Source: Buxus sempervirens (lineage: Eukaryota; Streptophyta; Magnoliopsida; Buxales; Buxaceae). From it: DNA of 64,000 nt. The translations under genes and the position numbers were made by a program. A model generated the notes under the pieces. That model saw nothing but the letters and a program-made list of their open reading frames with translations. It did not search any database and was not told the origin of the DNA. The stretch is taken from positions 441,501 through 505,500 of the forward strand of contig OX387195.1 in the NCBI GenBank assembly GCA_947561395.2, in the 5' to 3' direction. Below, piece by piece: positions 1-62,512 of the stretch (positions are counted from its first letter, which is position 1; each line of letters begins with the position of its first letter).

Positions 1-756
1 AAAAACAACGCCAAGGCATGCATACGGAAACAGGAACAGAGACTTGTGTACATGCAAGAAGACTCCTAGTAGAGCTCTAACTAACATGTGTACACCGTAA
101 TCCTTTCAAGACCAGACCCCAAGACGCATGCTTAAACCCACGTAAATGTAGAAAGAAAGGAAGAGGGGGGATTTTCATGGGGTACATTAGAGATAATCGG
201 AGAGGGAACAAGCTCCCTTTTCAAATGTGCTTGGCAGCAAGCTAACCCAAATACTTATGAGTCATAAAAGTGCGTAAACTGGACTCTCATGCCTCTAAAA
301 GCTCACACGTGGACCTTTACCCTTGGGGGGTCTTCATGACATGAAGCAGAAATCACATGCATGCTATGTGGGCACTCAAAGAGACTTAGAACAACAATGA
401 AGGACCATGCACCTCAACATGCTTGGAAATACCCCATTCTCATATATGTAAAGTAAAATTTCGTAGGAAGCAATACCTGGGGGTTCTTGAACCCTTGAGC
501 TAGGTGGAGTTGCTCCCTTGAGGTGGTACAGCAGCTGGAGATCTCCCTTTGTAGCACCAAGAGCAACTCAAGTCCTTCTTGTTTCAGTAGGAATAGAGAA
601 GGGAAGGAGAAGATAAGAATGGCTTGGGGTGGTATGGGGAGGTGATGAAAGGCAAATGGGGTTGGAAGGGATGGGATTCGGGGTGTGCAGGTGAGAGAAG
701 AGAGCAGGAGAAAAGCCAAAAGAAAAGCCAACCCCGGATATGAGCTGCTGATTTGC

Positions 757-764
757 TATTTATA
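757..764 (-). promoter_or_regulatory. TATA box of A1 (minus strand)
   Basis: TATAAATA on the minus strand. The same box lies at the equivalent place in A3 (9481-9488), A4 (47297-47304), A5 (58432-58439) and C1 (55043-55050). In A1, A3, A4 and A5 a splice-donor-like AGGTA follows 272-280 nt downstream, which supports a real core promoter. Motif call by eye. Confidence 0.5.
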
Positions 765-775
765 GGCAACTTAAT

Positions 776-885
776 GTATCCAGCAACTCAAGCCGGATAC
801 ACTAAGGTCCCCTTTTATCCGGCCTTCATGGCCGGATACACTGGCACTCCTTTGTATCCGGTCTTCAATGCCGGATACAAAACAT
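776..885. repeat. Palindrome array of A1, word TATCCGG
   Basis: Array of inverted repeats directly upstream (minus sense) of the A1 TATA box. The unit at 816-838 has arms TATCCGGCC and GGCCGGATA around five bases; the unit at 853-879 has arms TGTATCCGG and CCGGATACA. A further half unit is at about 791-802. The word differs from that in other family A copies, although the flanking backbone is shared. Confidence 0.75.
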
Positions 886-2410
886 AATCATTTGAAAATT
901 AAATGCCGCTGCGAATTTGTCGGGCGATCGGCGTGAATCTCGCGCGAAAATCTTCTTGTATCTGGCCTCCAAGTCCGGTCATGAAGGGGAGCTAGTGTAT
1001 CCGGCATTTACAAATCGAAAAATTACGGATTTGCCATTCGACTTGACCGATTCGACCGATTTGACACTTTTGGATATCTACGGATCGCCCCGTATGAATT
1101 TTTGATATTTAAGATTCAGTCCCTGAGATATTTTGCTGCGTTGGCTGCCACGTGTGCAGTTCCTACGCCACGTGTGTAGTTTCCGGCTTTGCTGCGCGGA
1201 AACTTCGATAGCTCATATCTCATTTATCCGAACTCCGATTTGAGCAAACTCAATTGCGTTAGACTCATATCAGAGCCATCTATTTAATGACGTAGGGCTA
1301 AGCACTTGGCACGGGGTTCGAGGAAAGGTCAACTTTCGGCCCTTCCTTAAGTTTGACCGCCCGCAGAACCTTTATCCGGACTCCGATTCCTGCAAACCCA
1401 GTTGCGTTGGACTCGTGTTGGGATTCTCTATCCATTGGGATAAAGCAAGGTGGCCAAATTTTATCTGATTAAAAGGTCAACTTTTCACCCTTCAGGGTTT
1501 GACTTTTTAGCCGGGTTTTGCATTTCTGGCTTTTCTGGGAGTGCAAAAATGAGGTGCTTACAGTTATAGAGAAATTTTATTTTATTAGTGAGATATGAAC
1601 TTTTATTATTTGAAAATAAACTCATACTGTGCGCACCTAAGAATCGATCGCACGGGTGAACGCGTGCAAGACACGTGCCTCGGGACATTTGGAGTCGCCA
1701 CTACTTGAAAGGTGCAGGCAGACACAAAGGGTTGCCTAATTGGGTCTAATCTTCTGGTTTGCGGCTTTTTTAGAGATCTGGCTAAGTTCTCGATTACGTC
1801 TGGGGAAGTCCGAAGACACCCCAGCCTGCCCCGTCGGTTTGACGGGTCCCTCGGGTCTCCCTAGTTTTGAGTCAACTATCTCACCCTGTCCTAATCCAGC
1901 ATGTATTTTGGTTAAGTCTAGTGGGGTCCTTTGAAGGTGTGGGCCTCTTTTTATTATTTTTATCTTTTTATCCTTTTTGGTGAAGTGGGTTAGGTATGGG
2001 CCCTGTTTGGAGGCCTATGGATTGCCAGATTGGGTTTGAGCCCATGGCTTAGTAGGGTCATTGGGTAACCCTTGTTGGATTTGGTTTGTTTTTGTTTAAA
2101 GGATTGGTTAAAACATGCAAACTTAAGTTGGTTCAGATTTTTAAGGGGCCCAGTGGGCTTGGACTTGGCCCACAGGCAATTAACCAGGTGGCCTTTGACC
2201 CATTTATTGAAAATGGGCCTTGTTTGGGCCGGACTGGATGTGGGCCCCGTTGGAAGGCCCACAAAGCCTTGATGGGTGCGGGTGGGCCCACGGTGTCAAA
2301 ACGGGTTTGGGGTGACCCAAAAAGCCTAATGAGTTAAGTTTATGTTAAAACGGGTCGGATTGGGTCCAACCGGGTCAAGGGAATTGATTTTTTGATTAAT
2401 TATGGAATAA

Positions 2411-2513
2411 ACCGCATATGCAATGCGGTCTAGGCTGAACCGCAGATTGAATGCATTTCAAGCCTAACCGCATATGAAATGCGGTCAAGCCCGAACCGCA
2501 CTAAGTATGCGGT
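2411..2513. repeat. First palindrome array of A2, word ACCGCAT
   Basis: Three 19-bp units with arms ACCGCAT and ATGCGGT or close variants, at 2411-2429, 2467-2485 and 2495-2513. A related word returns in the second array about 1.2 kb away (3704-3875), next to the TATA region. Confidence 0.8.
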
Positions 2514-3703
2514 TTGGCTCAGCTTTCCCAAAATGGCCAAATCGGCCGCTGGATCTGGTTTGCTTGGCTCCCTGGGATGTTTGCCAGCTCTGGTGGCCTC
2601 CAGTGCTTGCTTCTGGTGACATTAATACCCGCTTTTACACCAAAACTTCGCTTTTTTACCAATCACTCAAGCATCCTTGACCACCCATTTCAAGAACCAA
2701 AGAAGCATACATGACCAGATGTGAAAGTGAAAACACATAAGCTTTACAACTAGTAGGTGAGATGAATCGGTTAAGAAATCAAATCGTGATTTAAGTGAAG
2801 TGTTGAAAACCATAAAAAAGGTATCTCCAAACAAAGCACGTGCTAGTGAGTAAAAAGAGGAAGTGATCCTCAACTAGTTGTGCAACTAAACACACACTCA
2901 CTATAAGAAATCTGCGACAAACAAATACAAGTGTGTGTTGTGTGTGGCATTCTTGTTAAAAAGAAAGTAAATGTAAAGGGAATGAAATCACCCGCGTGTG
3001 CTCCTTGTGTTCCTACCTCCTACATGCATGAATATGGACGTGGGGAAAGAATATTGCAAACTTGCAAACATATATGGGAATACCAAATAACCTGTCCAAC
3101 TTGAAGGGAAAGAAGGGTAAGAGTGTTAGGGGTACATGAGATCGAAGAAAGAGGACAGACCCCTCTTAAATATCATAGATCAATGAGAGAAAACAAGCTT
3201 ATAACTATATGAACAAGACTTTATGTTAAACCCTTCTCTCCTCTCATCCCTTTTCGTATAGAGATCCCCATCTTCCATGGGGTCTCATATGATATGCACA
3301 AGGGAAACCAAACAATTAGAAAGAATATAACAATTATAAGTACTAAAAAGCTTAAAACAAAAGTTACTGGAAAGGCCTGATTCTTATATATGTTAAGTAC
3401 AGAGTTACCAAGAATACTACCTTGCTATTACCTTTCAGCTCTGATGAGTGGTGGTACCCCGGGAGATGTGGACAGAAATTCGGGAGCCTTCTCACCTCCA
3501 GAATTCAGCTTTTCTGTGTTCTTTGTGTGAAAAAGTAGAGAAAATGAGCAAAGGAAGGACTAAGAGGGGTATTTTAGGGATTAAAAAGGGTTTAGATGGA
3601 TAGGTGAGCTTCAGGATGGTCGCAGGTCGCCAGAGCAGCAGGGTAACGACAGGGTTCAAAATCCTTCTCAACAATGGGGGGTGGACGCCTATTTGTAGGC
3701 AAA

Positions 3704-3875
3704 ATGTCCGTGTCCGCATTTCAAATGCGAACGAGCCGCCCATGTGCTAAAATCAGCGCGAATCTGCCAGCTGTCGCCGTTGCCGACGTGTGGTGATCTT
3801 CTAGAAGACCAAAACCGTATTTGAAGTGCGGACATGACTTGTCCGCGTTTCAAATGCGGACGAGCACGTTTTAAA
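3704..3875. repeat. Second palindrome array of A2
   Basis: Inverted repeats with arms GTCCGC and GCGGAC (3841-3861) and TCCGCAT and ATGCGAA (from 3712), plus degenerate units between. The word is close to that in the first array of the same copy and to A5, but unlike A1, A3, A4 and A6. Confidence 0.7.
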
Positions 3876-4482
3876 AATTCCAGATTTGAAATCCATTATC
3901 CAATTGAGCTTTGAGTGAAGATATGTTACGATTTTTTCATTATTTAATACAAAAATCTAGATTCTTTTATTAAAATCTTATTTAAATAATTAAATACTTT
4001 TAATAATTACTTATTTATTACTTTTAAAATATTACTTATTTTAATAATTACTTATTTTATTTTTGATATTTATTTATTCTGCATTTTTCTGCTGTTTTGC
4101 CACATGGGCAGTTTTCTTGAAACTTTAACCGGCCATAACTTTTTCGTCCGGACTCCTATTCGAGCAAACTTAGTGTCATTGGAATCGGCTAGGAATCCTC
4201 TATCCACCAGAATCAAAGTGGGCAGCTAAATTGGGGTCAAGCAAAAAGTCAACTTTTGCTCTCCAAAAGTTTGACCGGCTCATACCTTCCTCGTCCAGGC
4301 CCCGATTCCAGCAAATTCAGATGCGTTGAAACTGTGTCAGAATGCTTTTTTCAATGAGAGGGAGCTTGATGGTCAATCTCCACTGAATCAAAAAGTCAAT
4401 TTTTTTTACCCTCTCGGGTTTGACTTTTCAATTTGAATTTTCATTTTCTTCATTTTGGGGGTGCAAAAATCAGGTGCTAACA

Positions 4483-5585: not shown

Positions 5586-5611
5586 GAGTTGCCACTGCTT
5601 GATGGGGTGCA
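5586..5611 (-). mobile_element. Fragment of old family A copy A7 (left piece)
   Basis: GAGTTGCCAC...GATGGGGTGCA matches the GAGTCGCCAC...GATGGGGTGCAGG block near the left end of A3 and A4. It is cut by B2 directly after GGGGTGCA and resumes at 12995, so B2 landed inside it. Oldest layer of this nest. Confidence 0.6.
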
Positions 5612-6783: not shown

Positions 6784-8378
6784 GAGATTCATTTCGATCG
6801 ACCGTTTAGTTGGGTGTTGATCGAGTGTTCTGGAGATCAGAGAATCAAAGGGAAGTAGCTAGGGTTTGGAGGAGAAGAAGAGAATTCAGAGGAGATTGCA
6901 TCAGATCTAGTAATTTGATTGTTTGAAGAGAGGTTTCGGCTGTTATTGGCGATCGGAGTATCACCAAATTGTTAGATTCAGAGAGTAATTCGGTAAGCTA
7001 AAAATTCAGATTCGTAATCAACGATTATACAATGATTTTGAGGTGATTCGAATTGGAGTCTTTCAGATCTGATCAAACTCATATTTCCTGCAGAAGAAAA
7101 AGCAAACCGATTGTGCGCGCGTGGGAAACGCGGCACGGAATAATTCGGAGTCGCCACCGCCTGATGGGGTGCAGGCGGACACCTGGGTGCCTTAATCTTG
7201 TCTATTAGGGCTTTTGGTCTACGGCTTGAGATTCTAAGTAGGGTCTTGGTTGTGGTCCGGGGAAGTCCGTAAACACCCCGGTCCACCCCGTCGGATGACG
7301 GGTCCCGTGGGTTCCCTGGTTTGAGTCAGCTTGCATTGGTCTCACCTGATTCCTAATCCGATATGCAATTTGGTTAAGTCTGGCGGGACCACCTGAGTGG
7401 TGTGGGTCCCTTTAATTACTTTTATCTTGATTACTCAGGTGATCTGAGTCTGGTTGGGTGGGCCCCGTTGGAAGGCCCACGGTATCCTTGGTGGGCTTAG
7501 TCAAGCCTGTGTACCCTTGTGGACCTCAGTCTAGCCTGAGAGGTCCTTTGGGCTTTGGTTAGTTCAATTGATTTTACTTTAGGTTCAGATTTAAAATTTA
7601 AGTGTTTTTCATGAAAAGGTGGGCCGGATAGGTTCATGGGCCCCTATGGTGGGCCAACCTGGTGGCCAAGCATTTTTATTGGATTTATCTTTTTAATCTG
7701 CCAAAGTGAGTTGGACACTGGGCTTGGGGCCCGTAGTCCAAATCTGGGCTTGTAAGCCCAGGTTACCGGAAGTTAGGGTTTGCACCCTTCCTTGGTTCGG
7801 TTGGTGGGCTTTGGCGGGCCCGATAGGCCCTTGCCCTTGGTCTCGGCCAAACCACGCAATTCATGCATCAATTTCACATAACAAGGCTCGGGTGGGCCGC
7901 ATTGGGTTTGGCCCGCCCGGTTCAAATTGTTCATTTTACTTAAGTTATTTAATGGCATGCTTTGGTGTTTATTGGGCTTGGTGGGCCCCATTGGAAGGCC
8001 CACTGGAAGTCAAGTTGGACCGGGAGTCCAAGTCCCATGTCGGGTTTCCGGGTGACCTAGAAACCCTATTGGTTTATCCGGTTCGGTTCGGAAATATCAT
8101 TCACATCTAGCAACAATCACAGAAAAAACACACGATAGACATTCTGTCAGAGAAAAAAACTGGCTCATTGTGCTGGGTCCAAGGGGAGGTACCCGGGGGC
8201 CCTGTGGGCGGAGCGAAGCGGAGCCCCTCGCGGAACAATAAAGGGCATTTTTGGAATTTTTCAAAAATATATCAATTCGGCATGTTTTAGGGGTAGGCAC
8301 CGACCTCAGGTAGTAGGCGCGAGGTCGGCGCGAAATGGGCGGACCGAAAACAGCGAAAAAACACAAAAAAATGAAGTG

Positions 8379-8502
8379 GGCGCGAGGTTCGCGCGAGGTT
8401 CACGAGAATCTCGCACGAGCTTCGCGCGAGGTTCACGCGAAGTGCTCGTGCGAGCTTCACACGAGATTCGCGCGAGCTTCGCGCGAGATTCGCGCGAACT
8501 CA
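8379..8502. repeat. First palindrome array of A3, word TTCGCGCGAG
   Basis: Dense array of CGCGAG / CTCGCG half sites in both orientations, about ten or more, standing where A2, A4, A5 and A6 carry their own words. The CpG density is very high against the AT-rich surroundings. An arginine-rich reading frame across it is a translation artefact of the repeat. Confidence 0.7.
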
Positions 8503-9462
8503 GCGGACACTCGATGCTCTCGGTTTTCTTTCAAACTCCCTTTCTTAGCTGATTTTTAAGATCTGTAACTCATTTTTTAGGCTTTGTAAGCCCTCCCAGG
8601 GCTTCGACCACCCCCAGAAGATACTCACACATGCATTGGAATTAATCTAAACATGCTTCATGCTTCATCCCACAACCCAAAATCTCTTAAGAGAGAAAAA
8701 AAAAACAAACCCGATAAAAAACAAACCCGATACAGATGCATTAACAGCTTAAAAAGGGGGGGGGGGTGATGGGAGCATGCTCAAGGGTGCACAAGCAGCA
8801 AATAGCATGTTAGCAAGTCCAGCAATGTAAAAAAAACAACAAGAAAAAACAACATGCAGACATTACATGCACTTTCCTCCCCCGACTGGACCTCCGAGCA
8901 GGCACACTAACATCCGAAGAAGGGAGAGAGGAGGGGGGTTTAGAGGGATACATCAGATGAGTTAAATGAGGAGCTCATTCTTTACAGGAGTGCCGGGCAC
9001 CTCATGAGCACTCGGAGGAGCAACAAAACCCTTGTCTTCTTCACGGGGTCGTGCATGAGGTCTCCCTTACCCTGGAGACCTCCATGTCACCCAAAATGGG
9101 GGGAGCAACAGAATGCGTAGCAAGGGAAGGAAACACAACAGTTGCGATGACATGCATACGACTCCCATTTTTATATATGTAAACAAGTGCGAAACATTAC
9201 CTGGAGTTCCTACGTTCTGGTGCAAAGCGGCGGCTTCTCCTTGAGGTGGCACGAGCTCTGGAACTCTCCTCTCTTGCACCTCCAGCAGCAACCGGCCTCC
9301 GCTTGTTTGCGTGAGGATGAGGAAGAAGCAAGACTAGGGGGTGTTGGATCAAGGTGGGGAGCTTGGGGAGGCCGAAGCCACTGAGACAGGTAGGGTTCGG
9401 GTGGGGAAGGAGCTTGGGCACTGCACCAGAAATCCTCTAAACCAAATTTTTTCCAACCCTTT

Positions 9463-9480
9463 GCGCGAGATTTCGCGCGG
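9463..9480. repeat. Second palindrome site of A3
   Basis: GCGCGAGATTTCGCGCG, the same word as the array at 8379-8502, lying directly next to the minus-strand TATATAAA (9481-9488). Confidence 0.65.
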
Positions 9481-9488
9481 TTTATATA
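9481..9488 (-). promoter_or_regulatory. TATA box of A3 (minus strand)
   Basis: TATATAAA on the minus strand, with the palindrome site directly upstream and a donor-like AG/GTAAT 280 nt downstream (exon end 9201). Confidence 0.5.
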
Positions 9489-9934
9489 GACCGAGGGAAA
9501 AAAAAGGACCCGCCCACTTAAAAAAAGGGGCCGCTCACTTAAAAAAAGGGTATCTTCTCAGCTTGAGCTGAGCGCATACCCTGCTGCCACGTCCGCGCGA
9601 GCGGCATAATGATGAGAAATAATTTAATGCCGCCGCTCGCCGGTCGAAAAATCTAAAAAAATTCAGATTTAGTCCCTGACAATTTTTGGTAAAATCCGAT
9701 ATTCTCGGATTTTTACAGATTTAGTCCCTGGGATATTTCGAATGTTCGGATATTTACGGATTTGATCCCTGAGATATTTTCCTGCGCAACTCGCCACGTG
9801 TGCAGCTTTTTGCCACGTGCGCAGATTGCCGATTTTGCTGCTCGAGAATTTTGTCAGCTCATATTTTCTTCATCCGGACTCCGATCTGGGCAAACTTAGT
9901 TTCATTAGAATCGTATCGGAGCCCTCCATCCCAT

Positions 9935-10669
9935 GACCTAGGGGTAGGCCTCTGGATCGGATTTTAGCAGAAAGTCAAATTTTGGCTCTGCTCAGGTTTG
10001 ACCGCCCGCAGAACCTTCGTCCGGACCCCGATTCCTGCAAACTCAGTTGCATTGGAACCGTGTCGAGATTCTCTATCCAATGACCTAGGGGTAGGCCTCC
10101 GGATCTGATTTTAGCAGAAAGTCAACTTTTGGCTCTGCTCAGGTTTGACCGCCCGCAGAACCTTCGTCCGGACCCTGATTCCTGCAAACTCAGTTGCGTT
10201 GGAACCGTGTCGAGATTCTCTATCCAATGACCTAGGGGTAGGCCTCCGGATCGGATTTTAGCAGAAAGTCAACTTTTGGCTCTGCTCAGGTTTGACCGCC
10301 CGCAGAACCTTCGTCCGGACCCCGATTCCTGCAAACTCAGTTGCATTGGAACCGTGTCGAGATTCTCTATCCAATGACCTAGGGGTAGGCCTCCGGATCG
10401 GATTTTAGCAGAAAGTCAACTTTTGGCTCTGCTCAGGTTTGACCACCCGCAGAACCTTCATCCGGACCCCGATTCCTGCAAACTCAGTTGCGTTGGAACC
10501 GTGTCGAGATTATCTATCCAATGACCTAGGGGTAGGCCTCCGGATCGGATTTTAGCAGAAAGTCAACTTTTGGCTCTGCTCAGGTTTGACCGCCCGCAGA
10601 ACCTTCATCCGGACCCCGATTCCTGCAAACTCAGTTGCGTTGGAACCGTCTCGAGATTCTCTATCCAAT
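9935..10669. repeat. Tandem array, five units of 147 bp
   Basis: The word GACCTAGGGG recurs at 9935, 10082, 10229, 10376 and 10523 and the unit closes at 10670, a constant period of 147 bp. The first unit is more diverged, the others nearly identical. Each unit contains the TCCGGACCCCGATTCCTGC and AAAGTCAACTTTTGGCTC segments that other family A copies carry as two or three diverged units at the same place. So the array is an expansion of an ancestral right-end module. Confidence 0.92.
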
Positions 10670-12994
10670 GATATAAAGCGAGGTGGCCAATTTTCACTTG
10701 ATCAAAAAGTCAACTTTTCACCCCTTAGGGTTTGACTTTCTGTCCAGGGTTTGTATTTTTGGTTTTTCTGGGAGCGCAAAAATGAGGTGCTTACACCGAT
10801 CGAATGGAAGTGATGTTTTCAGAGTTGAAAAGTAGAATTGAGGACTATGGAGACTGGAATTTGACATCACTAATGTAAGTAGCACCTTTGAAATTCGATT
10901 TTCGTTTAGAATTGTAGATTACAGAACCGATCATGAGATGATTTTGAATGCTCTCTGTTTCTATGATTAAAATAGCTATTGACATATAGATTGTTGGAAT
11001 TATGGTTTTATTAAGTCCGAATTGGTATGGTTGATGTCTTAAGTGAGTAATGAATACATAGTAAGTGGTTTAAAGGAAGAAGAATAGGTCAAAATTTGAG
11101 AAATGGAAGTTGCAGGAAGATGAACTTCCGTTCTGGTTGAGATCGCCTAGGCACCCAGACTAGGCGACCTCATTCTTAGGAATTTGGCTGGATGCCCAGA
11201 GATCGCCTAGGCGCCTGGTGGTAGGCACCCAGAGAGTAAAACTTCAAATTTTTATAATTAACTTGCTGGTTCAAATCAGGGATTATTTTGATGAATCAAA
11301 TAGAGGTAATTAAGGGAAATGGGATAAGTGAAGAATTATGTCATTCTAGAATTCATAAGGGGAATTGACTTAAAATAAAAAAAAAAGAAAAGAAAGAAAG
11401 GGTGAGTGTATACAATAGTATATAATTACACATAAGAGATTAGAAATTTCAAGAGTAAGGGTTATAGAAATTTTACCATGAGCAGCATATTACTGAGATT
11501 AATTGGAGGTGTTCTAGGTGATTTCTTCAGAAAATTAAGTTAATTATGAAGTGGGAATTAGGGTTCTTATTTAAGTAAATTGTGAGCTTTAGAAAAGGAT
11601 ATTAGTAGCTTACTTTGGGAAAGAATAAATTATGGATAATGCTTATAGGAAATTAATTGTTTTGAATTAAAAATGTGTAAATCAATACTGAATTTTATTG
11701 ATATGGTCAAACTCAGATTTCTGGCATTCGATTTTCATTGGATTAATCAGGAATGACACGATTATGTAAATTTGCGTCGAATTGGGTTTTATGCGAATTT
11801 TATGAAAAGAATTTTAAACTGAATATGAAGGATTTTATTTGTTTTCCTCCATGTACTTGGAGAGATGGATTGAGACGCCCATGTACTTGGGTAGATGTTA
11901 TGCTTCCGTGTACTTGGGGATGCCCCATTGTTGTGTTTGCTGGACATCGTGTTTGGTTTTGTTTTAGAGTCTAGTGGGCATAATACGATATGGATCCATT
12001 TAGGAGCTAGATAGTGGGAAGGATTGTTCTTTACTAGTGGTAATTCTTTGTTCGTGCACGCGTTTCCATCGTGTACTCGATGAGGCCTTCTCTATACAGG
12101 GGGATTGTTGCTTTCCCTCATTTTATCGTGTACTCGGACTATAACTGGTTAGTACTTGCCAACCCTTCGCTGTACTAGTTGGGTTCTCCCGCAATAAGAC
12201 GATGATCGTGTACTCAGCTTCGCACATAAGCCGGGAGGTGGTACAGTGGACATTGATATTACTCTAGTTAAAGGCAGTCTTATTTCATGAGTCATACTGT
12301 GACTTATTAAATTCTGATCGATATTATTGATTTGGCTAGTAAATGAAGTCTATCTATTTTGTTTGGATTAAGGCTAGTCTCCTTAATGCGTTTCCTCCAT
12401 GATGGAGAGGCCTTCCATGAGGGAATGGCTGCAGCAACTCTGTTTCCACCATGAGGGTGAGGTCATTTGTATTTCTATCATGAGGGTGATGATATGGATA
12501 TTTGAGATGTTGCAGTTGTTCTTAGACTGGATTTTCTAGAGCTAGGTCTTAACCTATTAAAATACTCAAATTTCATTATTATTATTGTTTTGACATATAT
12601 ATCTATTATTGTTTGGTTTACATGATGGATTCAGATTATTCGTGTTATCATCACTACTATATATATTTTAACTGATTCATGTTTCAGAACTGAATAAAAT
12701 GTATTTGAGCATGTATATACTACTTACTGGGATATTCGTATTTCATTCCGTTTTTTTTTCAAATCTTGGAAAGGACGATACTTTATGGGTAAATGCTTGG
12801 ATCATGTGATTTAGACTTGAGATATGGTATTTTTATAATTGAGCATAGGATTGTAGTTGACTCTACTTATGTAGTTTATTGCTTTATTCATGTTTTCCTT
12901 TACTCTGATATATCGATCTTGTGTGAAATATTAACACTTTGGAGATGAGTTACAGTTTTCACTACGTAACTCGGATCTGGGGCGTTATAATGTA

Positions 12995-40471: not shown

Positions 40472-40760
40472 TGGTGGCCAGTTTTATTAATAACCTGCTT
40501 GGTGGCAGAGATTATTAACTTCTTGGTGGCAAAGATTATAACCTGCTTGGTGGCGGAGACCTTAACCCGCTTGGTGGCAGAGACCCTAACCCGTTTGGTG
40601 ACGGAGACCCAACCTGCTTGGTGGCAAAAATAACCCGCTTGGTGGCGGAGACCCAAACTGCTTGGTGGCAGAGATACCTGCTTGGTGGCGGAGACCCAAC
40701 TTTCTTGGTGGCAGAGATTACCCGCTTGGTGGCTGATATACCCGCTTGGTGGCGGAGACA
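40472..40760. repeat. CTTGGTGGC array, about 13 units
   Basis: About thirteen copies of GCTTGGTGGC followed by AGAGAC or CGGAGAC, spaced irregularly at roughly 16-37 bp. It produces repetitive frames on both strands. It is followed by a different set of short palindromic units of the CTCCTGCGGGAG type. B1 and B2 carry other words (CCATGATGG, CGTGTACTCG) in the corresponding region. Confidence 0.9.
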
Positions 40761-46140: not shown

Positions 46141-46260
46141 CCGAAATTGGATTTCGGTTGACCATGCCTGCTAGCATAACCGAAATCCAACTTCGGTTAA
46201 GCCACAGGAAACCCTTGACCGAATTGAGTTTTCGAGCAACCTGCCGAAACTCAATTCTGC
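46141..46260. repeat. First palindrome array of A4, word AACCGAAAT
   Basis: Inverted units such as AACCGAAATTGGATTTCGGTT and TAACCGAAATCC...TTCGGTTA, with degenerate CCGAATTG / CCGAAACTC half sites after them. Same word as the second array at 47317-47430. Confidence 0.75.
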
Positions 46261-47296
46261 ACTTTTTGGACAGAGAACCCATCCAGGGTGCTTGTGAGCA
46301 TGTAAGGTGTCTCTGTGGGCCCCTGTGTGGGCCCACAGTGGCTCTAATGAGGCCATTAGGCCCTCAACTCTGGGGCTTTCAAAGCCAAATAGCAAGGGGA
46401 ATCAAGGGGTTTGTTCCCCCCTTTTTCAAACTAAACAAGGATCAACCAGGGATCTGAGGATCCCTGGTTTGGTTTCCTTTACTAGAAGACAAAAAAAATA
46501 GCATGCTTACATGAAGATAAAAATCACACACAACATGACTACCTAGGCATGTTTCAAAGACCGCAACTAGACCTCGCATGACCAAAAATAAAGCGCAAAC
46601 TCCAGCATGCATCTCATGATATTTAACATGACAATATTATCTCTAAAGCCTAATCAATATCGCATCTAAAGAAGGGCGGGGGAGGGGGCTTATGCCAAGG
46701 ATACATTGGGATTTCAAGATGGAGGAGGAACATGCTCCTCACATTGACGTAAAACCAACAACCGTGACCCTAAAACAATGGCCGAACAGGGGTTGCATGA
46801 CCACTCTTAAACCACCTAACACGCCTTCTAGCCCCTCATTATACCATTGGTAGCTTACCTTTCCCACGGAAGTGATCTTTTATCAAATGAGCATGAGGAG
46901 ATGACGGAAATGACAAGCTAACATACACATGGTGACTAAGACATGAGGTTACAACGAAAAATAAAGTGCTCCAAATGAGTTGAAATTCATATATGTTGAA
47001 TAAACCTTAGGGAGAAGCCATACCTTACAGTTGAAATCCTCTTTGGAGGTGAGTTAGAGGCTCCTTGAAACACCACAACTCCTAGACAGCAACTCCTCCA
47101 AGCACCAAGTCTTCACAAGCCTTCTCCAAGGTTCTCCAGAGAAGAAGGAAGGGGTGGGGGAGGGTTTGAAGTGGTTTGGGAAGGGATTTAGGGTATTAGG
47201 AAGGGTTGAGAGGGTGGAGAGGGAGGTCACGAACAGGGTAGGGGGAGCTCCAACAACAAAAATGGCCAACCCCTTGCAAATGGGCTGCTGAAGCCC

Positions 47297-47304
47297 TTTT
47301 ATAG
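47297..47304 (-). promoter_or_regulatory. TATA box of A4 (minus strand)
   Basis: CTATAAAA on the minus strand; palindrome array upstream, donor-like site 273 nt downstream. Confidence 0.5.
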
Positions 47305-47316
47305 ACAAAATATGAA

Positions 47317-47430
47317 TAACCGGAATTGAATTCCGGTTATGAAGCAAATGTAGTATAACCGAAATTTAATTTCGGTTATACTACAAACCATTTGTAACCG
47401 AAATTAAATTTCGGTTACATTTGCACTTGA
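47317..47430. repeat. Second palindrome array of A4
   Basis: Three nearly perfect palindromes: arms ACCGGAATT / AATTCCGGT at about 47320-47338, TAACCGAAATT / AATTTCGGTTA at 47356-47378, and GTAACCGAAATT / AATTTCGGTTAC at 47394-47418. It lies directly upstream (minus sense) of the TATA box. Confidence 0.9.
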
Positions 47431-48100
47431 TTAGCAATTAATTTCTGTCAGGTACGGATTTAGACAATGTGTCGGGCGATTTTTGATTTCGCTTTATGAA
47501 CCGAAAATATATTTCGGTCATTCTGACAAAATTTTTGATATTTACAGATTGCTCCCTGGATTTGACCGATTTGACCTGATTTGACCTTGATATATTCGCA
47601 GATAGCCCCCTGCGAAATTTTGGATTAAACCCTGAGATATTTGGCAAGTTTTGGATATTTACGGATTGCCCCTTGAGATATTTTCCTGCGTTTCTTTGCC
47701 ACGTGTGCAGTTTCCGGGATTGCTGCCCGGAAACTTCAACAGCTCATATCTTCTTCATTCGGACTCCGATTTGAGCAAAAACAGTTGCGTCAGAACCGTA
47801 TTGGAGTCCTCTATCCATTGGCATAGGGCTAAGCACCTGGTTTGGGGTTTAGCAGAAAGTCAACTTTCGGCTCCCCCTCAAGCTTGACCGGCCTGTAAAT
47901 CCTTCATCCGAGCTCCGATTCCTGCAAACTCAGTTGTGTTGGAACCATGTCGGGATCCTCTATACATTGAGATAAAGCAAGGTGGCCAATTATCACTTGA
48001 TCAAAAAGTCAACTTTTCACCCCTTAGGGTTTGACTTTCTGTCTAGGGTTTTGCATTTCTGGCACTTCTGGGAGCTCAAAAATGAGGTGCTTACACCACT

Positions 48101-53210: not shown

Positions 53211-55042
53211 AATATTGTGAGACATGGAAATGTCATCTAAGATGACCTCCGATATCGTCACGCGGGGATCGATAAATGTAAGAGTCGCTACCATCCATCT
53301 TAAGGTGTGAATGGACACCAAATGCATCATGAAAGCCAAATAGAGCCAAAGTAGCTCTAATATATGGAAAAATCCAGAGATTGGGTAAGGGGAATTATTT
53401 ATGAGCGGGGGAAGGTGTTAGGCACCCCCACTCATCCGTCTAAGACGGTTGCCACATGCTTGCTTATGCTCTAAATTGTTTGCTAATGAAATGGACGAAA
53501 AAGTGCTTATAACAAGCACAATGTATGTGACCATTCCACATGAGAAGTCTAATGAGCTTAGACTCTCTTGGTGGATCCATCACTCCTAGAACTTCATGAG
53601 TGAAGAGAAATCCAAGTGTAAATGAAGAAACTCAAGCTAAGGTAAATCTGGAGAAATTAGATCAAAAGAGCTTGAAAGCTTCGATTAACCATAACTTATT
53701 CAATTTAAATCCAAATCCAATGAAACCAAAGCCATTTGAAAACTGGTATATAGTAGAGCATATAGTAAAAATTTCAACTCAATCCGATTCAAAATAAGAG
53801 AGAAATCCACATCTAAAATTTGCTGTTATAACTTGGAAAAAGTGATGAGTAGGCATTTTCGAAGTCCTATTCGTGGAGTTTGGCTCAATAAAATTCCATA
53901 AAAATTGGTATGGAGGAAGTATGTAATGCCCTCTTTCCAAAGGAAAAGGTCTCACCCCAACCTCTATCCGGATGCGACTTGTGTGCTCTCTTGAATAGGC
54001 CTAGAAGACCACAGATTAGCTCTGGACTATGCCAGCGAGCACCTCTGAGTCAATCAAGCACACAGGCCTCAAATCAAATCAAAATCTGCTGAAACCAGTT
54101 GGAAATGAAAATAGACTTCTCAAGGAAAACTTAGAAATTAGAATCACTCAAAATGGATTAAAATTGAATAAACGGTGCACCATCAAAGCGGCAAGTTCAG
54201 CAATCTGGGCTGAACTGACTTACAAACTTTGGACAGATGGTGTCAAAAATTGGCTACATGAAAGTGGACGAAATTTTCCAGATATAAAATAGGCACATCC
54301 ATCTATCACATGTCTTTGGAATCACTCAAAAATTCATCCGGAGGATGAAGTTATAAGCATTCCAAGACAGGCCACAGATCTGCCCTGTTTTGAAGATTTT
54401 GAATAGAAAAATGGAAACCAGTGCATGTGTGTATGTGAATTCGACCAAAACCTTAAAAATAAACAAAAAACCATCTCATGAAGTTCTAGAATTCATTCTG
54501 AAGCTAATTGATTCAGATTTCCCGTATTAAACATGGAAATCCAAGATCTAGCTTCTTAGATGAAAATGGTGAAGAGTGTGTGTGAAGGTGTGGAAATCCA
54601 TTCCCTAGGAGAAGGATGGAATCCTTTGCTATTGAGAGCAAGGATTCACATATTTCTCCCGAAACAGATACATAATCATCAGAAAATTCATCCAAAGGCT
54701 CAAAGTAACCATATAGCATGCTCTTCATCATTTGTAGGTTCTAAGCCTAGAGGATCCATTCCACCTTCCTTTTCCCCAGGCTCTCTCTTCACGTTTTACG
54801 GCTAGAGAGGATTCCCAGGTACTTTGGAAGGGGTTTGGGGCTTGCAAACAATCACAAACTGGCCTTACACTACAGAAAGGTAGAAGTTGGGAATTGGAAT
54901 GTAAAGGCGAAGCTGGAAATGTAATCAGGACTTTACCTTAGGTAGCTTGAACACTTGAGGCAGCAATCCAACAGAGTTTCTCCTCTTCTTGCAAAGCTTC
55001 CAAGCTTCAAATTATCAGCCATTTGCAAGAGGAGGACCCCTC

Positions 55043-55239: not shown

Positions 55240-55530
55240 CGAAACAGCCAAAACCGCATACACAGTACGGTTTCAACACAATCGTCACTCAAAGTGCGGT
55301 TCATATACAAATTTAACCAAACCGCACATACAGGACGGTTCAATTCAGTTACGCTTGTCATGATTGCTGTCGACGTGGCTCAACGGCCGAAGCTTCGCGA
55401 AGCCACGTGGCAGCCCACGCAACAAGCATGGATGTCAACCGTGCTGTGTGTGCGGTTGCAACCGCACATACAGAGCGGTTGAGACCAAAATTACAAAAAC
55501 CGTATACTCAGTACGGTTGGCACCGATTTT
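55240..55530. repeat. Palindrome array of C1, words ACCGCA and ACCGTA
   Basis: Five or more inverted units: AACCGCATACACAGTACGGT (about 55251), ACCGCACATACAGGACGGT (about 55322), ACCGCACATACAGAGCGGT (about 55461) and the unit at 55498-55518 with arms AACCGTA / TACGGTT. The last unit is identical over 21 bp to one at 56267-56287 outside C1. Confidence 0.8.
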
Positions 55531-55636
55531 GAGAGTTTTTGAGTGCTTGACATATGTCAAGGCTCAAATAAGACTTTTAAAGTTTATTTGGAGTATTCTC
55601 TTATATAAAGGTGCAATTTGGGGTGTCTACAAATAT

Positions 55637-56406
55637 TTGATCTCAACTCCTTATCCCTAATCTGGATTCAAATGTACCCCTTCTTAAATCCGATATCCCT
55701 TCTTTAGGTCTTGCTTTGATCATGCTTATATTCATTCTTGTGCCTATGTTTCTTTGAGACAGCATGTGTACACACATACACACACATGCTACTTTTAGCA
55801 TCAAATTTCCTTAGGCAATTTCAAGTATGCTTTGAATCATATTCAGACCTCATTTTTGCACATACTTCACAGTAGGTTCTTATATATGGCATAAATTGTT
55901 TTCTCCTCTTTTTTGTGATTATTCATGTGCAATGGTTTGGCTGAAGTCCCCATGCAATAGGCCTTTTGGGCCTTTGATTTGGTCTCCCACCAATAGGGGA
56001 TGAAATCAGTTGCTTTAACCATGGTAGGGGACCTCACCCCACTCCAAAAACCCTAAGGTCGTAAGCTTAGACAAAAGGAAAAAAGCCCAAGCTCTTCTCC
56101 TTACATCCTTGGCATAATCACCTAGTAAAATAGGTTAAATGAAGTTTAAAATCAACTTGAAACCACTGTGGACACACCAGATGCCCACAGCATGTTCAAA
56201 CTCATCTAAAAGAAGAGGAAATCCCAAAAAGCCTCGAAAAATGCATTTTGTAATTTTTTAGAGCGTAACCGTATACTCAGTACGGTTTTGAATACTTTCA
56301 GGAATAACTGCACTATGTATACGATTACAGCCTGACAAGATTCCAGATAGCATTCTTTCCTCTTTTGGGTATTCTAAATTAACATTAAATGATTTGCAAT
56401 TAAGCC
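55637..56406 (+). mobile_element. Host repeat D, piece between C1 and A5
   Basis: Non-coding. Holds inverted repeats with arms AACCGTA / TACGGTT (56267-56287) and a degenerate unit at about 56316-56325. Further D pieces are 59165-59392 and 62513-62723, where C1, A5, A6 and C2 have landed. A segment at 59165-59392 is the reverse of the family A GGGCCCCGTTGGAAGGCCCAC region, so D looks like an A-related element lying in the opposite direction. Its ends are not visible. Confidence 0.4.
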
Positions 56407-57186
56407 AGTAGTGTGCGCACCTGTTTTTGCACGACGAGGCGCATGTGAGAGTGCGTGCCTTGGGACATTCGGAGTCGCCATTGCCTGAGAGGTGCAGGTA
56501 GACACCAAGGTACCTATTCTGGTCTAATTTTAATTGGTTTGCGGCTTTTCAGAGATCCTGGCTAAGTTCTTAGTTACGTCTAGGGAAGTCTGAAGACACC
56601 CTGGCCCGCGCCGTCGATTTGACGGGTCCCTCGGGTCTCCCTGGTTCAAGTCAACTTATTCTCACCTAATATCCTAGGCCAGCATGTAACTTATTTGGTC
56701 TGGTGGGAACCACTGAAGGAGTGGGTCTCCTTTTATTTGATTTTATTTTTTTATCTTTTCCCTTTAAATGATGTGGAATTGGGTATGGGCCCCGTTGGAA
56801 GGCCCGTGGGAGTCCAAGTTGGGCTAGAGCCCATGGCCTAGTCTGGGTTATTGGGTAACCCTTATTGGATTTGGTTGTTTTGGTCTAAGAACTAATTAAA
56901 TATGCAAGTTAGTTAAGTGTATTAAGGCTTTTAGGGCCCAATGGGCTTAGACTTGATCCAAGGGCAATTAATCAAGTGGCCTTGGGCATGTTTATTGAAA
57001 ACGGGCCTTGGTTTGGGCCGGATTGAATGTGGGCCCCGTTGGAAGGCCCACAAAGCCTTGGTGGGCCCAAAGTCTCAAAATGGGCTTGGATTGACCCAAA
57101 AGCCCCATTGGTTCATTTTGCATCAAATTGGGTCGGATCGGGTCCAACTGGGTTCCAGAAATGGATTTTTATGGGTTAAATGAGCC

Positions 57187-57265
57187 GGACCGCATATGTG
57201 GTGCGGATTGGGCATGACCGCAGATGCAGTGCGGTCCAAACATTGGCACCTGTATATGCGGTTTG
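57187..57265. repeat. First palindrome array of A5, word ACCGCA
   Basis: Units with arms ACCGCAT / GTGCGG (about 57189) and GACCGCA / TGCGGTC (57216-57236), then a half site TATGCGGT (about 57255). Confidence 0.8.
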
Positions 57266-58431
57266 GGCCCGAACTCCAAAAACGGCTGAAATGGCCTCGG
57301 GGTCTGGTTTGCCCTCTTCATTGGCACCTGCGCGAACTGCTTCATGCTTCAGATCACGTCCATAGAGGCTATCAAGATCACTTCTAGCTATAAGCACCCA
57401 TTTTATTTACCCATTCACATGCATATTTAATCACCATCAGCAAACACGCCAGCTAAATAACATATTAGCATATGAGAATAATGATATGAATCACATGATG
57501 ATAGTCAAAAGAAATATATAAAGGATTGACATGCTTTTAGAAACAAGCTAGAAATATTTAAGATGACTTACCAAGTGTATGCATGTAAGCTAGGAATTCT
57601 ATACTAATGTTTATAATGAATACGAACAAACCAAAGCGAGCCTCCATCATATCCCTTATGTACTATGTATGAATGTGTGAGAGGTGTACTTCCTATCCAC
57701 AAAAACATGCCAAAATAGTGAATGAAAATGAATACATGCATGTGTGTGAGGTGACCTTGCTACGTCAACAAAACCCCCACGAAAAGATGAGACAATGATA
57801 AAATGGGGAGACATATAAAAGAAAGATAAAATCTAACTTAAGAGAAGGGTGAGAGGGAGAGATTTAGGGGTACAACGGAAATCTAAAGAGGGCATATCCC
57901 TCTTTTAACAAAAGATAAACCAACTAAAAGAGATATTCAAAGTGACTTGAGCAAGACTTCTATTGTATACAAGGACCCTCGATATCCCACCTTTCGTATG
58001 AGGAGTCCCCTTTACCGTGGGGACTCTAATAACACACTCAAGAAGATTACATGGTGAATAAGATAGAATATAAGACAAATCTGAAGTTAGCCAAAGGAAA
58101 GCTTGCTTAAAAAGAACTTTGCTTCAATATATTGAGAAAAACACAACAAAGGCTATTACCTTGGTACTACCTTTCTTGTTTGGAGTGTGATGATACTCCA
58201 AGCGATGAACTGTAGCTTGAGAGCCTCCTTTTAGTTTCAAAAATCACCTCTGTTGGTTCTTTTTGTGAGTGGAAATGAGAAAAAGGAGAAAAGGATGAAG
58301 ATCTAAGGGTATTTTGGGTATAGAAAAAGAGTTTGGTTGAGTGGGTAGAACTTCAGAAGGGTGGTAGGTTGCTGGAGAGGCAGGGGGACCATAGGGCATA
58401 GAGGCCTTGCAAACAATGGAGGGTGGACGCC

Positions 58432-58439
58432 TATTTATA
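58432..58439 (-). promoter_or_regulatory. TATA box of A5 (minus strand)
   Basis: TATAAATA on the minus strand, donor-like site 272 nt downstream. Confidence 0.5.
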
Positions 58440-58451
58440 GGCAAAATTTTC

Positions 58452-58600
58452 GTGACCGCATTGCAAATGCGGTCGAGCTGCCCATGTGCACAAATACGTG
58501 CAAATCTGCCAATTGGCGACGCGTGGCAGGCTTCTAAAAGATCGGAACCACATTTGAAGTGCGGTCAAGGTACGTCTGCATTCAAAGTGTGGTCGCGTAC
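58452..58600. repeat. Second palindrome array of A5
   Basis: Unit 58454-58474 has perfect arms GACCGCATT / AATGCGGTC around GCA; degenerate units follow up to about 58600. Directly upstream (minus sense) of the TATA box. Confidence 0.85.
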
Positions 58601-59164
58601 GTTTTTAAATGCTGGATTTGAAATCCCTTATTCAATTTAGCTTTGAGTGAAGATTTGTTCTGATTTTATGAATATTTTAATGTAAAAATCAAGATTTTTT
58701 ATTAAACAATTATTTAAATAACAAGATATTTTTAATAAATATTTATTTTATATATTTATTTATTCTGCCTTTTGCTGCTGTTTTGCCACGCGAGCAGTTT
58801 CCTGAAACTTTGACCGGCCATAACTTTCTTGTCCGATTTCAGCAAACTTAGTTTTGTTGGAATTAGCTCGGAATTCTCCATCCACTGAGCTAGAGTATGG
58901 TGGCAAATTCTATTTTTAGCAGAAAGTCAATTTCTACTCCCCACAAGGTTTGACCAGCTCATAACTTCTTCATCCGGACTTTGATTTGAGCAAACTCAGT
59001 TGCGTTGGAGCCATGTCAGAATTTCATATCCAATGAGAAGAAGTTTAGTGGTCAATTTGAATCTGATAAAAAAGTCAACTTTTTTACCCCTCAGGTTTGA
59101 CTTTTTCAATTAGGGTTTTATTTTTTCATTTTTCTGGGTGCAAAAATGAGGTGCTCACAAGTAG

Positions 59165-59392: not shown

Positions 59393-60171
59393 CTAGGTGT
59401 GTGCATCGTTGCACGCGGGTGCACGTGAGAGTGCGTGCCTTGGGGAATTCGGGAGTTGCTACTGCTTGAGAGGTGCAGGTAGACACAGGGTTCCTAACCG
59501 GGTCTATCATGACTGGTCTGCGGCTTATTAGAGTTTCTGGGCAAGTTCTCGGTTACGATCTGGGAAAGTCCGAAGACGCCCCGGTCCGCCCGTTGATCTG
59601 ATGGGTCCCATGGGTCTCCCTGGTTCGAGTCGACTCTAACTCACCCTTATTTCCTAAGCCAGCATGTTCATTCTTTTGGTCTGAGTGGGGGCTACTGAAG
59701 GTGTAGGTCCCTTTTATTTTGTTTATTTTATCTTTTTAACCATTTAATGAAGTGGGTCGGATATGGGCATCGTTGGAACTCCCATAGGAATCCAAGTTGG
59801 GCTTTTGCCAAGCCCAAGGGCCAATTAGGGTTATTGGGTAACTCTTATTGGATCAGGTTATTGGATTTTGGATTTGATTTTATTTACAAAATTTAATGTG
59901 TTCAAGCTTTTAAGGGCCCGTTGGGCTTGGAGTTGGCCCATAGGCAATTATTCAAACGGCTTTGGACCCATTATAGAAATAGGCCGTGGTTTGGGTCGGA
60001 CTGGATGTGGGCCCCGTTGGAAGGCCCACAAATGGATCAAATCGGGCTTGGAAGGCCCAAGGCTCATTTTGGGTTTCCGGTTGACCCGGAAACCCTGCTG
60101 GTTCACAAGGTTGGATTATAATACATCAATAAACAATAAAAGGTTGAAAATTCACTTTTAGCATTTTTTAT

Positions 60172-60237
60172 ATGTAACCGAAAATGTATTTCGGTTAAAC
60201 AGAAATATGGTGTGACCGAAAATTAATTTCGGTCACA
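60172..60237. repeat. Palindrome array of A6, word ACCGAAA
   Basis: Two units: arms TAACCGAAA / TTTCGGTTA at 60175-60197 and arms TGTGACCGAAA / TTTCGGTCACA at 60211-60237, each around five bases. Same word class as A4. Confidence 0.88.
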
Positions 60238-61573
60238 CTACATTTTTTGTTTATCCAAAAAAAATGTTGGTTAATCATAAAAAATACCTTAGCCAACTTG
60301 AGTTTTCAGTAAAACAGTAAAAAAATTGATTTTTTGAAAGATTTAAAATCAACCAAATGGAAGGAGGCTAGGGTTGCCTCTTCCCTTTTTTTGAACTGAA
60401 ACCAGCAAGTGAACACGGACCCAAGTGTCCCTGTTTTGATCCCTCTTGCTCCAAAAACCAGCAGTCAACACATACAGATACAAATTAATCAAAAGACTTC
60501 AATAAAGAAACTTTCATGCTCAAGTGTGAGAGTGTGCCTTTGCTGCATACATATACTAAAATAAACATTCGCATGCATAAAAAAAACTGATTACAGAATA
60601 TATATATATATATAAAGAGTGATCTAAATCAAGCTCCTAATGCATGAGTGTGTGTGCATATGCATGGAGTATATGAGAAGAAATGATATTACTGATTTTT
60701 CATGAACAAGACAATAACCAAAAATAAGATGAAGCCATGACTAAAGTGTACAAAACAGCAACGTAAGGAGAGGAAATCCTACTCATATGCATATGCATAC
60801 TCCATATGGATGATAAGAAATATCATGCATGCCTTGGGTTAGTAAAATATAAAAAAAAGAAATAAAATCCAACACATTCATACATGAATTATAATATGAT
60901 CCTAACTAACTCATTCATTTTAGCTTAAAATAAGAATATCTAAAGAAGGGAAAAAGGGGATTACTAAAAGGGGTACATGGGATAGCAAAGAAGGGGAACA
61001 TACTCCCCATTGAATAAAGAGAGGATAGAAACAACAACTTTTAAATACTGGAAATCAACCAAAAAAATCTCTCCTTCTCTCTTTAGATCAACCGAAATCC
61101 ATCCCTTACCTTAAGGAAGTATCAACCCACATAAAATCATGAAAAGAGAGTATGATGGAGAGATAAATGCAAAGATCACTATAGAACAGAAATCTTACAA
61201 CCTACATAATATTCAACATGCTTTGAATAAGCCAAACCATACATATGTTCAATAAAATGGTCTAAGAAGACTCACCTTGAGCTTGAACACTTGTTAAAAG
61301 TGTTCTTACACCTTTCTTAGGCCAAGACAACACTTGGACAGCACCTCCCCTTCTCTAAGAGCACTCTTAAGGGCTTCTTTTTGTGTTTGAAATGAAGAGA
61401 TAAGATGGAGAAAGGATTCAAAATGGCTTAGGGGTTTGGAGGCCTTGAAGTAGAGTTGGAATAGGGTGAGGGAATGGTCGGATGGGGTGGGCAATGGAGG
61501 AAGTGAGAGAGGTGAAAGAGATGGAGGGAGTGAGGAGTAAGGGCGGAATGGAGAGAGCAAAAAAAATTGCCGA

Positions 61574-61591
61574 CCCCCCCCCCCCCCCCCC
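61574..61591. repeat. 18-base C homopolymer in A6
   Basis: Uninterrupted run of 18 C on the plus strand, a run of G in the inferred sense strand, about 25-45 nt downstream of the TATA-like region. Confidence 0.85.
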
Positions 61592-62512
61592 TTTAATGAG
61601 GGTTAATAAAGCTTTTTTATACTCCAAGACCAAAACAGAAATATGTTTGTACTCCATGACCAAATCATCAATACTTTTGATACCATGCCCCATTTTTTAA
61701 GAAAAATAATTATTACCCTTTTTTCTTATCCAACACCTCTTGGGGACAGCACATCACGCATGTGCTCTTATCCCCTTATTATTATATTATATTATTTTTT
61801 ATTTTCTTTGATTTTTATGAGTTTAATATTATTTTATTTAGATTTTTGTTTTGGTTTTAAATGCACATGCGTCTTTTGATTTTCTATTTTCTTTTTCTTT
61901 TATTTTAAACATCTTAATTAGATATTTTATGAAAATATTATTATTTTAATTCAAGATTCTTTTCTTTTACTGCTTTTGCCACGTGTGCAGATTTTCCGAA
62001 ACTTTGATTGCCCACAACTTGCTCATCTGATATCCGATTTTAGCAAACTTAGTGGCGTTGGAATCAGTGCGAGATTCTCTATCCACTGAGCTAGAGTTTT
62101 GCAGCAAAATCCGGTTTTTAACAGAGGTGCAAAATTGCTCCCCTTGAGCCGGTTTTGCTCATATATCTTTATTTGGGACTCCAATTCCTGCAAACTCAGT
62201 TGCGTTGGAGTCATGTCGAGATGCTCTTTCTGCTAGTATAAAATTGAGCAGCTGATTTGGGGTTTAGCAAAAAGCTGATTTATGCTATTTCTAGATTTGA
62301 CCAGCCCATAACTACTTCATTTGAACTTCGATTTAGGCAAACTTTGTGTCATTAGAACCGTATCAGAATCCTCTATCTATTGGTAAGAAGTTTGGTGGTC
62401 AGTTTGCACCCGATAAAAAAGTCAAATTTTTTACCCCTTAAAGTTTGACTTTTTCAATTCGGGTTTTATTCTTTCATTTTTCGGGGTGCAAAAACGAGGT
62501 GCTGGCACTAGG

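Follow-up and report, generated by a model that had tools for sequence, protein, structure and literature searches.

The stretch analysed here is 64,000 nucleotides of Buxus sempervirens DNA (contig OX387195.1; below, the window, C22:441501-505500). It holds six copies, A1 to A6, of a repeat called family A. An earlier note, made from the letters alone, had claimed that each copy carries its own inverted-repeat word and that the same word class recurs at two distant sites of one copy. The question raised by this locus is what could hold two sites to one word while the word itself changes. We find that the family A copies are long terminal repeats (LTRs) on the minus strand, that most words are flanks of dyads with one geometry, CCG-N11-CGG, and that the two sites of an LTR agree in word beyond permutation. 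Genes for Plant Mobile Domain (PMD; PF10536) proteins bear the same words. It is tempting to speculate that the words are half-sites of operator-like dyads read by a dimeric regulator, probably an element-encoded PMD protein with a VANC-like role, a reading that we hold tentatively, at a little under an even chance. Genome-wide searches covered 676.5 Mb.

Family A and the geometry of its words

Because they have TG..CA ends and perfect 5-bp target duplications (seen by eye), A2-A6 behave as solo LTRs of 2.7-3.7 kb. A1 has a same-strand partner 18.9 kb leftward that is 99% identical over the 600 bases compared, and A1 is therefore probably one LTR of a full-length element. The copies and their words, in window coordinates, are as follows.

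1-1562, minus strand: A1, U3 side of an LTR extending left past the window edge; word TATCCGG
819-874: A1 proximal array, TATCCGG dyads (CCG-N11-CGG) starting at 819 and 858, 39 bp apart
1628-4482, minus strand: A2, solo-LTR-like, target duplication CATAC; word AACCGCA/TCCGCA
2412-2512: A2 distal array, three ACCGCA dyads (CCG-N11-CGG) starting at 2412, 2468 and 2496
3715-3859: A2 proximal array of the TCCGCATTTCAAATGCGGA type; a TATA-like box, seen by eye, is downstream of it near 3689-3697
7112-10795, minus strand: A3, solo-LTR-like, target duplication CCGAT; TTCGCGCGAG/GCGCGAG words off the N11 frame
8380-8498: A3 distal cluster of CGCGAG words
45109-48095, minus strand: A4, solo-LTR-like, target duplication CCACT; word AACCGAA
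46141-46196: A4 distal array, AACCGAA dyads starting at 46141 and 46180, 39 bp apart
47320-47414: A4 proximal array, dyads starting at 47320, 47359 and 47398, in a 39-bp phase
56412-59159, minus strand: A5, solo-LTR-like, target duplication AGTAG; word GACCGCA
57189-57262: A5 distal ACCGCA words, dyad start 57218; partly degenerate and below the threshold of the concordance test
58456-58472: A5 proximal dyad GACCGCATTGCAAATGCGGTC, with 25 bp between its centre and the TATA box
59398-62507, minus strand: A6, solo-LTR-like, target duplication CTAGG; word AACCGAA, at the distal site only
60178-60232: A6 distal array, dyads starting at 60178 and 60216, 38 bp apart

The words of the window were found where the earlier note had placed them. 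Within each of A2, A4 and A5, a single word class precedes the minus-strand TATA box and recurs at a distance of 1.1-1.2 kb, and A3 has GCGCGAG/TTCGCGC words at both of its sites, about 1 kb apart, without the N11 frame. The array of A6 is indeed distal only, but its word is AACCGAAAA and not AACCGAAAT as the note had it. The words do differ between copies, as claimed; what had been overlooked is the CCG-N11-CGG frame common to all but the A3 class. The A1 proximal array lies upstream of a minus-strand TATA box at about 759-764, and its distal array, four TATCCGG dyads 39 bp apart, lies outside the window at coordinates of about -579 to -462. The A4 TATA box is at 47298-47303, and the centres of the proximal dyads lie 25, 64 and 103 bp away from it.

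The frame was measured in 65 copies: the six of the window, 24 random copies from C1, six reached via the A1 flank and 29 resembling the A4 proximal region, which over-represent AACCGAA because they were chosen by that similarity. L001, L002, L009, L013, L024, L027, L029, L032 and L039, near-identical or overlapping, were dropped before the frame, mismatch, phasing and concordance counts. With a palindrome defined as a CCG...CGG pair with two matching flank bases, there are 144 dyads at N11 and at most five at each other spacing from 0 to 23 (59 and at most five without the 29 A4-like copies). The larger numbers at spacings 24 and 33 fit neighbouring dyads. The N11 dyads comprise 14 flank words and are present in 46 of the 65 copies. 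The window alone has 17 dyads above the palindrome threshold at N11, one of them a conserved U3 palindrome that is not a word; each of the other spacings between 4 and 30 has 0-3. As 100 resampled windows with the same neighbour frequencies gave a mean of 0.03 and a maximum of 1, the window dyads are not due to chance.

The spacing was also examined genome-wide. With a free gap of 0-30, TATCCGG gave 28,817 matches (58 for the reversed-pattern control) and AACCGCA 3,802 (control 17); among the matches listed, the gap was N11 in 90 of 92 and 49 of 50, respectively. Patterns with N11 fixed yield counts and no test of spacing: 1,470 for AACCGAAA (control 3), 11,266 for GCCCGTA (control 0) and 977 for AACCGTA (control 1). 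The free-gap search with AACCGAA (5,371 matches, control 307) was uninformative, because another repeat of the AACCGAACC type fills its match list; the fixed-N11 count for AACCGAAA took its place.

The dyads are also phased to promoters. Among 91 dyad-TATA distances below 120 bp, 85 are 24/25, 63/64 or 102/103 bp, across several words, and the step from one dyad to the next is 39 bp in 73 of 105 cases and 78 bp in 14; a 28-bp phase is frequent in GCCCGTA arrays. Within this frame the base after CCG takes all four letters across words, and conserved loops such as AACTCAG are kept between different arms.

As to the kind of element, exact matches to one LTR end pattern number 6,597 genome-wide (3,337 + 3,260), against none for the reversed pattern. 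LTRs also occur as near-identical pairs, one of which (L013/L014; 99.4% over 1.5 kb, 14.6 kb apart) encloses integrase domains, gag- and protease-like frames (by eye) and an LTR/internal junction. In both L093 and L094 the domain order is RT_RNaseH, RVT_3 (a second RNase H), Integrase_H2C2 and rve, and a second RNase H between RNase H and integrase is the criterion for Ogre/Retand (Tat) elements (PMC6317226). Judged by these two loci, family A is assigned to the Tat clade (Ogre/Retand type) of Ty3/gypsy. The gypsy-type order, RNase H then integrase, also excludes family A from the Sireviruses.

Ogre elements proper have a tRNA-Arg primer-binding site, with gag-protease and reverse transcriptase-integrase as two open reading frames split by an intron. 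In L090 a stretch resembling a primer-binding site follows the LTR. There (L090:237-310) the LTR end holds TGGCGACTCC about 45 bp ahead of the primer-site-like TGGCGACTCCGCTGGGGAC, which gives the impression of a primer site copied into the LTR; a related GGAGTCGCCA stretch lies near the corresponding end of A2-A5. At the LTR start of A3 (9868-10671) there are about five near-identical tandem units of 147 bp, a nucleosome-sized unit. Two or three related units occur in other window copies, and the L027/L028 alignment is offset by 147 bases.

Agreement between the two sites

For the concordance test the set was 60 copies, L010, L015, L016, L018 and L021 having also been dropped since they have no distal DNA. 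The conserved AGTTTCCG..CGGAAACT palindrome was left out, TATA anchors were set by hand, and 19 of the 30 C1 copies were extended, picked after their proximal but before their distal words had been seen. In 34 of the 60 copies, dyads above threshold stand at the TATA-proximal as well as the distal site. Proximal and distal words match there at a mean of 3.50 of four variable positions, compared with 2.56 when distal sites are permuted, and none of 5,000 permutations reached the observed concordance; with nine representatives, 12 of 5,000 did. Among the 19 random C1 copies read to +2600, five have both sites, three the proximal only, one the distal only and ten neither; the base after CCG agrees in all five two-site copies. 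The two sites of L035 differ in their outer bases (GCCCGTA/AACCGTA). On C1 below 10.53 Mb, five of nine AACCGTA matches lie within about 1 kb of a GCCCGTA dyad, and the other four have other spacers.

The words follow neither the LTR backbone nor pol. By their first 130 bases the LTRs form two clades, one with A1, A3, A4 and others and one with A5, A6, L035 and L011. A2 joins A5 and A6 by its LTR tail (77% and 68%, against 58-59% to A3 and A4). Words differ despite LTR-start identities of 91% between A3 and A4 and of 86-89% among A5, A6 and L011 (A5/A6, 86%), and AACCGAA is common to A4 and A6 across the two clades. The pol of L093, of the GCCGCTCGC class, is 91-93% identical in amino acids to that of TATCCGG-class elements. 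The earlier note had called for a check on correlation of the two sites beyond backbone phylogeny. Agreement in the 34 copies goes far beyond permutation, the words do not track the backbone, and the note's view of a co-changing set of binding sites, as opposed to chance, is supported. Beside its distal array A6 is a mosaic, A2-like (85%) and then A4-like (85%), and local exchange therefore takes part.

PMD genes that bear the words

On C1, several elements have a TATCCGG array that returns at a distance of 20-21 kb, and an extra array stands about 5 kb ahead of the second; we presume the recurring arrays to be the LTRs of elements of about 20 kb. Ahead of the second array, L092 contains a minus-strand PMD gene (PF10536, E 4.6e-14) with further exons, one of them coiled-coil-like (exon borders are inferred). 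Its ATG is preceded, at a distance of about 1.25 kb, by a pair of TATCCGG dyads with a 39-bp spacing, and an apparent leader intron separates them from the ATG. In the extra array the dyad centres are 25, 63 and 102 bp before a minus-strand TATA box, and about 117 bp beyond this box begins the coding part, at its ATG, of a second gene, which is homologous to PMD/DUF7745 (L105; E 9.8e-10 and 1.2e-8). Since both genes run against the presumed LTR direction, they are probably antisense in their elements; such PMD genes would lie, antisense to gag-pol, in LTR elements of the family A kind.

As a prediction test, the AACCGCA positions C1:14717242, 14733165 and 14738270 were picked by the geometry of the TATCCGG elements. 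A PMD exon (L095) was found where the prediction had put it and on the expected strand; its identity is 52% over 289 columns (E 1e-96). L095 has a coiled-coil-like exon and AACCGCA-type dyads, the nearest with its centre 24 bp before a degenerate TATA box (TATTTTAA), and no TATCCGG dyad occurs in the fetched stretch. PMD genes with a matching word thus fall into two diverged lineages with different words. PMD exons of the L092 type number 3,561 candidates, and the 119 scored are 92-100% identical. The second lineage has 150 matches, six of them in the listed C1 range (4.1-17.2 Mb). Five of these six, L095 included, have an AACCGCA dyad 2.0-2.1 kb on the 3' side, for which the chance is about 0.001 for one copy by genome-wide density arithmetic; the five cases are not independent because the copies are near-identical.

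A genome-wide search with PF10536 gave 8,447 first-look candidates and 117 scored matches; in the window itself no PMD gene was found. Several of the 117 form pairs of frames of about 575-590 aa, with 3.4 kb from one to the other, and apparently represent a different kind of PMD element. At L024:675-1012, just outside a family A LTR, there is a piece with 76-89% likeness to the second PMD gene (L105), probably in a neighbouring element, because this LTR is the outer end of a pair.

A candidate reader, its rivals and known systems

We then propose a model for the words. The dyads, CCG-N11-CGG with flanks that vary, stand in arrays at the promoters of Tat-type Ty3/gypsy elements and would be read by a sequence-specific DNA-binding regulator, probably a dimer because the inverted-repeat geometry is fixed and the contacts vary, and one of transcription because the arrays are phased to TATA boxes. 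The likeliest candidate is a pair of PMD-family proteins from the longer elements with the same words. These elements would carry the word both at their own repeats and at their PMD gene promoters, and the matching words at LTRs and PMD gene promoters suggest feedback by the PMD products. When the specificity of the protein drifts, all arrays would change word together, as in VANC and VANDAL, and elements with a matching word but no PMD gene might use the protein in trans. The regulatory sign may be activation, repression or removal of silencing; the VANC analogy favours anti-silencing or activation. Dimerisation would fit the coiled-coil-like exon and the suggestion that the host PMD proteins MAIN and MAIL1 perhaps form heterodimers (PMC5418596).

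A bolder version, possible but rather doubtful in our view, is that gypsy-encoded PMD proteins are fast-diversifying dimeric DNA readers, each lineage having a private code in the fixed CCG-N11-CGG frame, with variable inner and outer bases, at its LTR and regulator promoters. Protein and word would change together, and elements without PMD genes would copy the word; the repeated motifs and ENV-like genes of Sireviruses would be a parallel case.

Several observations weigh against PMD proteins as the readers. The A3-class words (GCGCGAG, GCCGCTCGC, CGCTCACC) are outside the N11 frame; the commonest three-base key is identical between proximal and distal sites in only 23 of 34 copies, and the base after CCG in 30 of 34; ten of the 19 random C1 copies have no threshold dyad and only five have both sites. 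The two PMD genes of L092 and L105 are barely alike (20% over 78 aa), and the LTR nature of the recurring arrays and the antisense orientation of the genes are presumed from the 20-21-kb recurrence and the array order. The stretches read of L013/14 and L003/4 (L094; TATCCGG), of L027/28 (L093; GCCGCTCGC), and of L103 (AACCGAAA) and L104 (GCCCGTA) yielded no PMD gene; these elements are dependent ones, unless the reader is something other than PMD. A further seven PMD loci (L096-L102), taken from the 117 scored matches, have no detectable homology to the exons described here (tblastn, 1e-3) and no array; only L096 has a palindromic N11 pair, and it lies inside the PMD coding part. Among the loci read, no PMD gene is joined to a family A element, and the genes are tied to family A by shared words only. 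Two PMD lineages with two words are a very small sample of co-evolution, the accounts of PMD in PMC5418596 and PMC9289625 assign it no molecular role, and no solved structure with a sequence match to PMD was found. The VANC comparison of the earlier note has gained a candidate, PMD genes with a matching promoter word, for which contact between protein and dyad is a prediction from sequence.

An alternative, which we consider unlikely though the strongest of the rivals, is a host transcription-factor family or silencing factor, a CCG-reading dimer, with words switching via host paralogues or by escape from a repressor. PMD genes would then bear the word merely by sitting in elements that use the same host factor. 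The presence of words in elements with no detected PMD gene fits this, and so does the CGG-CCG core of Sireviruses, with element-specific flanks and beside an ENV-like gene, which would suit a shared host reader (PMC2829016). However, words change at both LTR sites while differing between near relatives (A3/A4 and A5/A6), a pattern that a fixed factor would hardly produce; all four letters occur after CCG, and the second PMD lineage came with the other word. LBD (LOB-domain) proteins were considered as host readers, and the literature searched gave a passing mention only.

It is less probable still, and in our judgement improbable, that no co-evolving regulator exists and that the matches reflect tandem duplication, recombination between elements, module exchange and common descent. 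The 39-bp tandem units and the A6 mosaic would be expected from such exchange, and the permutation with nine representatives is the weaker one, several representatives sharing a clade. But the proximal and distal sites of an LTR carry one word, and a single local exchange cannot reach both; dyad symmetry is kept while arms change around conserved loops, and N11 is kept across at least five words.

The earlier note had also offered paired RNA structures. Hairpins in RNA or small-RNA sources, as proposed for Sirevirus palindromes of maize, or kissing or cyclisation sites that pair the 5' leader with the 3' U3 of genomic RNA, are very improbable and were rejected as the main explanation, because selection on RNA stems should favour G.T over A.C and the arm mismatches have no such bias (53 G.T, 58 A.C and 278 others at nine flank positions of 159 distinct dyads), even though the arms can form stems, small RNAs are reported to map to Sirevirus palindromes (Bousios et al. 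2016 via PMC10760457) and tea PMD genes yield 21-nt phased small interfering RNAs (PMC10673657). The N11 spacing holds whatever the stem and loop length and the TATA distance is fixed, both of which favour double-stranded DNA; the PMD arrays sit at promoters, and Rfam found nothing above gathering scores in the window.

A close precedent is already known in the Sireviruses (Ty1/copia; Bousios et al. 2010, PMC2829016). Each of these elements has one palindromic motif, with a CGG-CCG core in 12 of 13, which is repeated many times, both in the LTR ahead of the TATA box and ahead of the ENV-like gene; four Sireviruses with no ENV-like gene have motif copies in the LTR only. Element-specific palindromes before the TATA box and before an accessory gene are thus common to both systems. 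The Sireviruses belong to another superfamily, however, their accessory gene is ENV-like, and the spacing in their printed consensus motifs is shorter and variable, not CCG-N11-CGG; the motif descriptions in PMC2829016 include neither a second LTR array nor genome-wide co-variation. What is new here is the other superfamily, the fixed CCG-N11-CGG spacing, the two arrays per LTR, the PMD genes and the genome-wide co-variation.

The anti-silencing system of VANC and VANDAL (Hosaka et al. 2017, PMC5735166; Sasaki et al. 2023, PMC10398659) likewise has a protein encoded by the transposable element, and short motifs that form tandem arrays outside its coding parts; families differ in both motif and protein, and an unrelated element can share a motif. 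In the present elements arrays and words differ, and the protein side is two PMD lineages only. In contrast, VANDALs are DNA transposons whose motifs have the same orientation and no fixed dyad, and VANC binding has been demonstrated, whereas PMD binding is predicted.

Among Ogre elements, 57% are reported to encode PMD (Neumann et al. 2019, PMC6317226); the PMD-A clades are exclusively Gypsy-encoded (Ikeda et al. 2017, PMC5418596). The PMD passages of these two papers describe no target DNA or promoter array, whereas here a word is common to the genes and the LTR arrays. MAIN and MAIL1 are host silencing proteins with PMD (PMC5418596, PMC9289625). For the 'DOWN' motif, recognition of a promoter motif by a PMD complex is one option considered (Nicolau et al. 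2020, PMC7156037); this resembles the reading proposed here, but the genes are those of the host, binding is suggested only, and the account of the motif describes no dyad. Antisense genes between pol and the 3' LTR, suggested to be DNA-binding regulators, are also known from Retand elements (Vicient 2025, PMC11963269), with another domain, TRP28, and no matching sites reported in that account. In one literature library, searched by title and start of abstract, no paper joining PMD proteins to LTR dyads was found.

The dyads point to the DNA that a PMD protein should or should not bind. If the PMD reading is true, regulator-operator pairs evolve within a major lineage of plant retrotransposons that carries both partners itself, and one principle would link Sirevirus palindromes, accessory retrotransposon genes and VANC-style anti-silencing; elements may run private, fast-changing self-recognition systems.

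The frame also occurs outside family A. Five AACCGCA/AACCGTA-like N11 dyads at 55254-56285, of a spacer type also listed genome-wide, are probably the remnant of another frame-carrying element, and AACCGTA palindromes at 62541-62600, immediately right of A6 and beyond its target duplication, represent a further one. On C1 (9361740-9388991 and 8128486-8138967), single GCCCGTA dyads recur after about 9.5-10.5 kb, with one inside; one of these elements (L104) has a gag-like frame, so that different elements have the same word. The window further contains two copies, 72-82% alike, of a non-family-A repeat with GGGGGAAGGTGTTAGGCACCCCC (53382-54353 and 62917-63881), a perfect 84-bp tandem pair (35725-35895), and minisatellites of CTTGGTGGC (40489-40766) and GACGAAGG (24016-24270).

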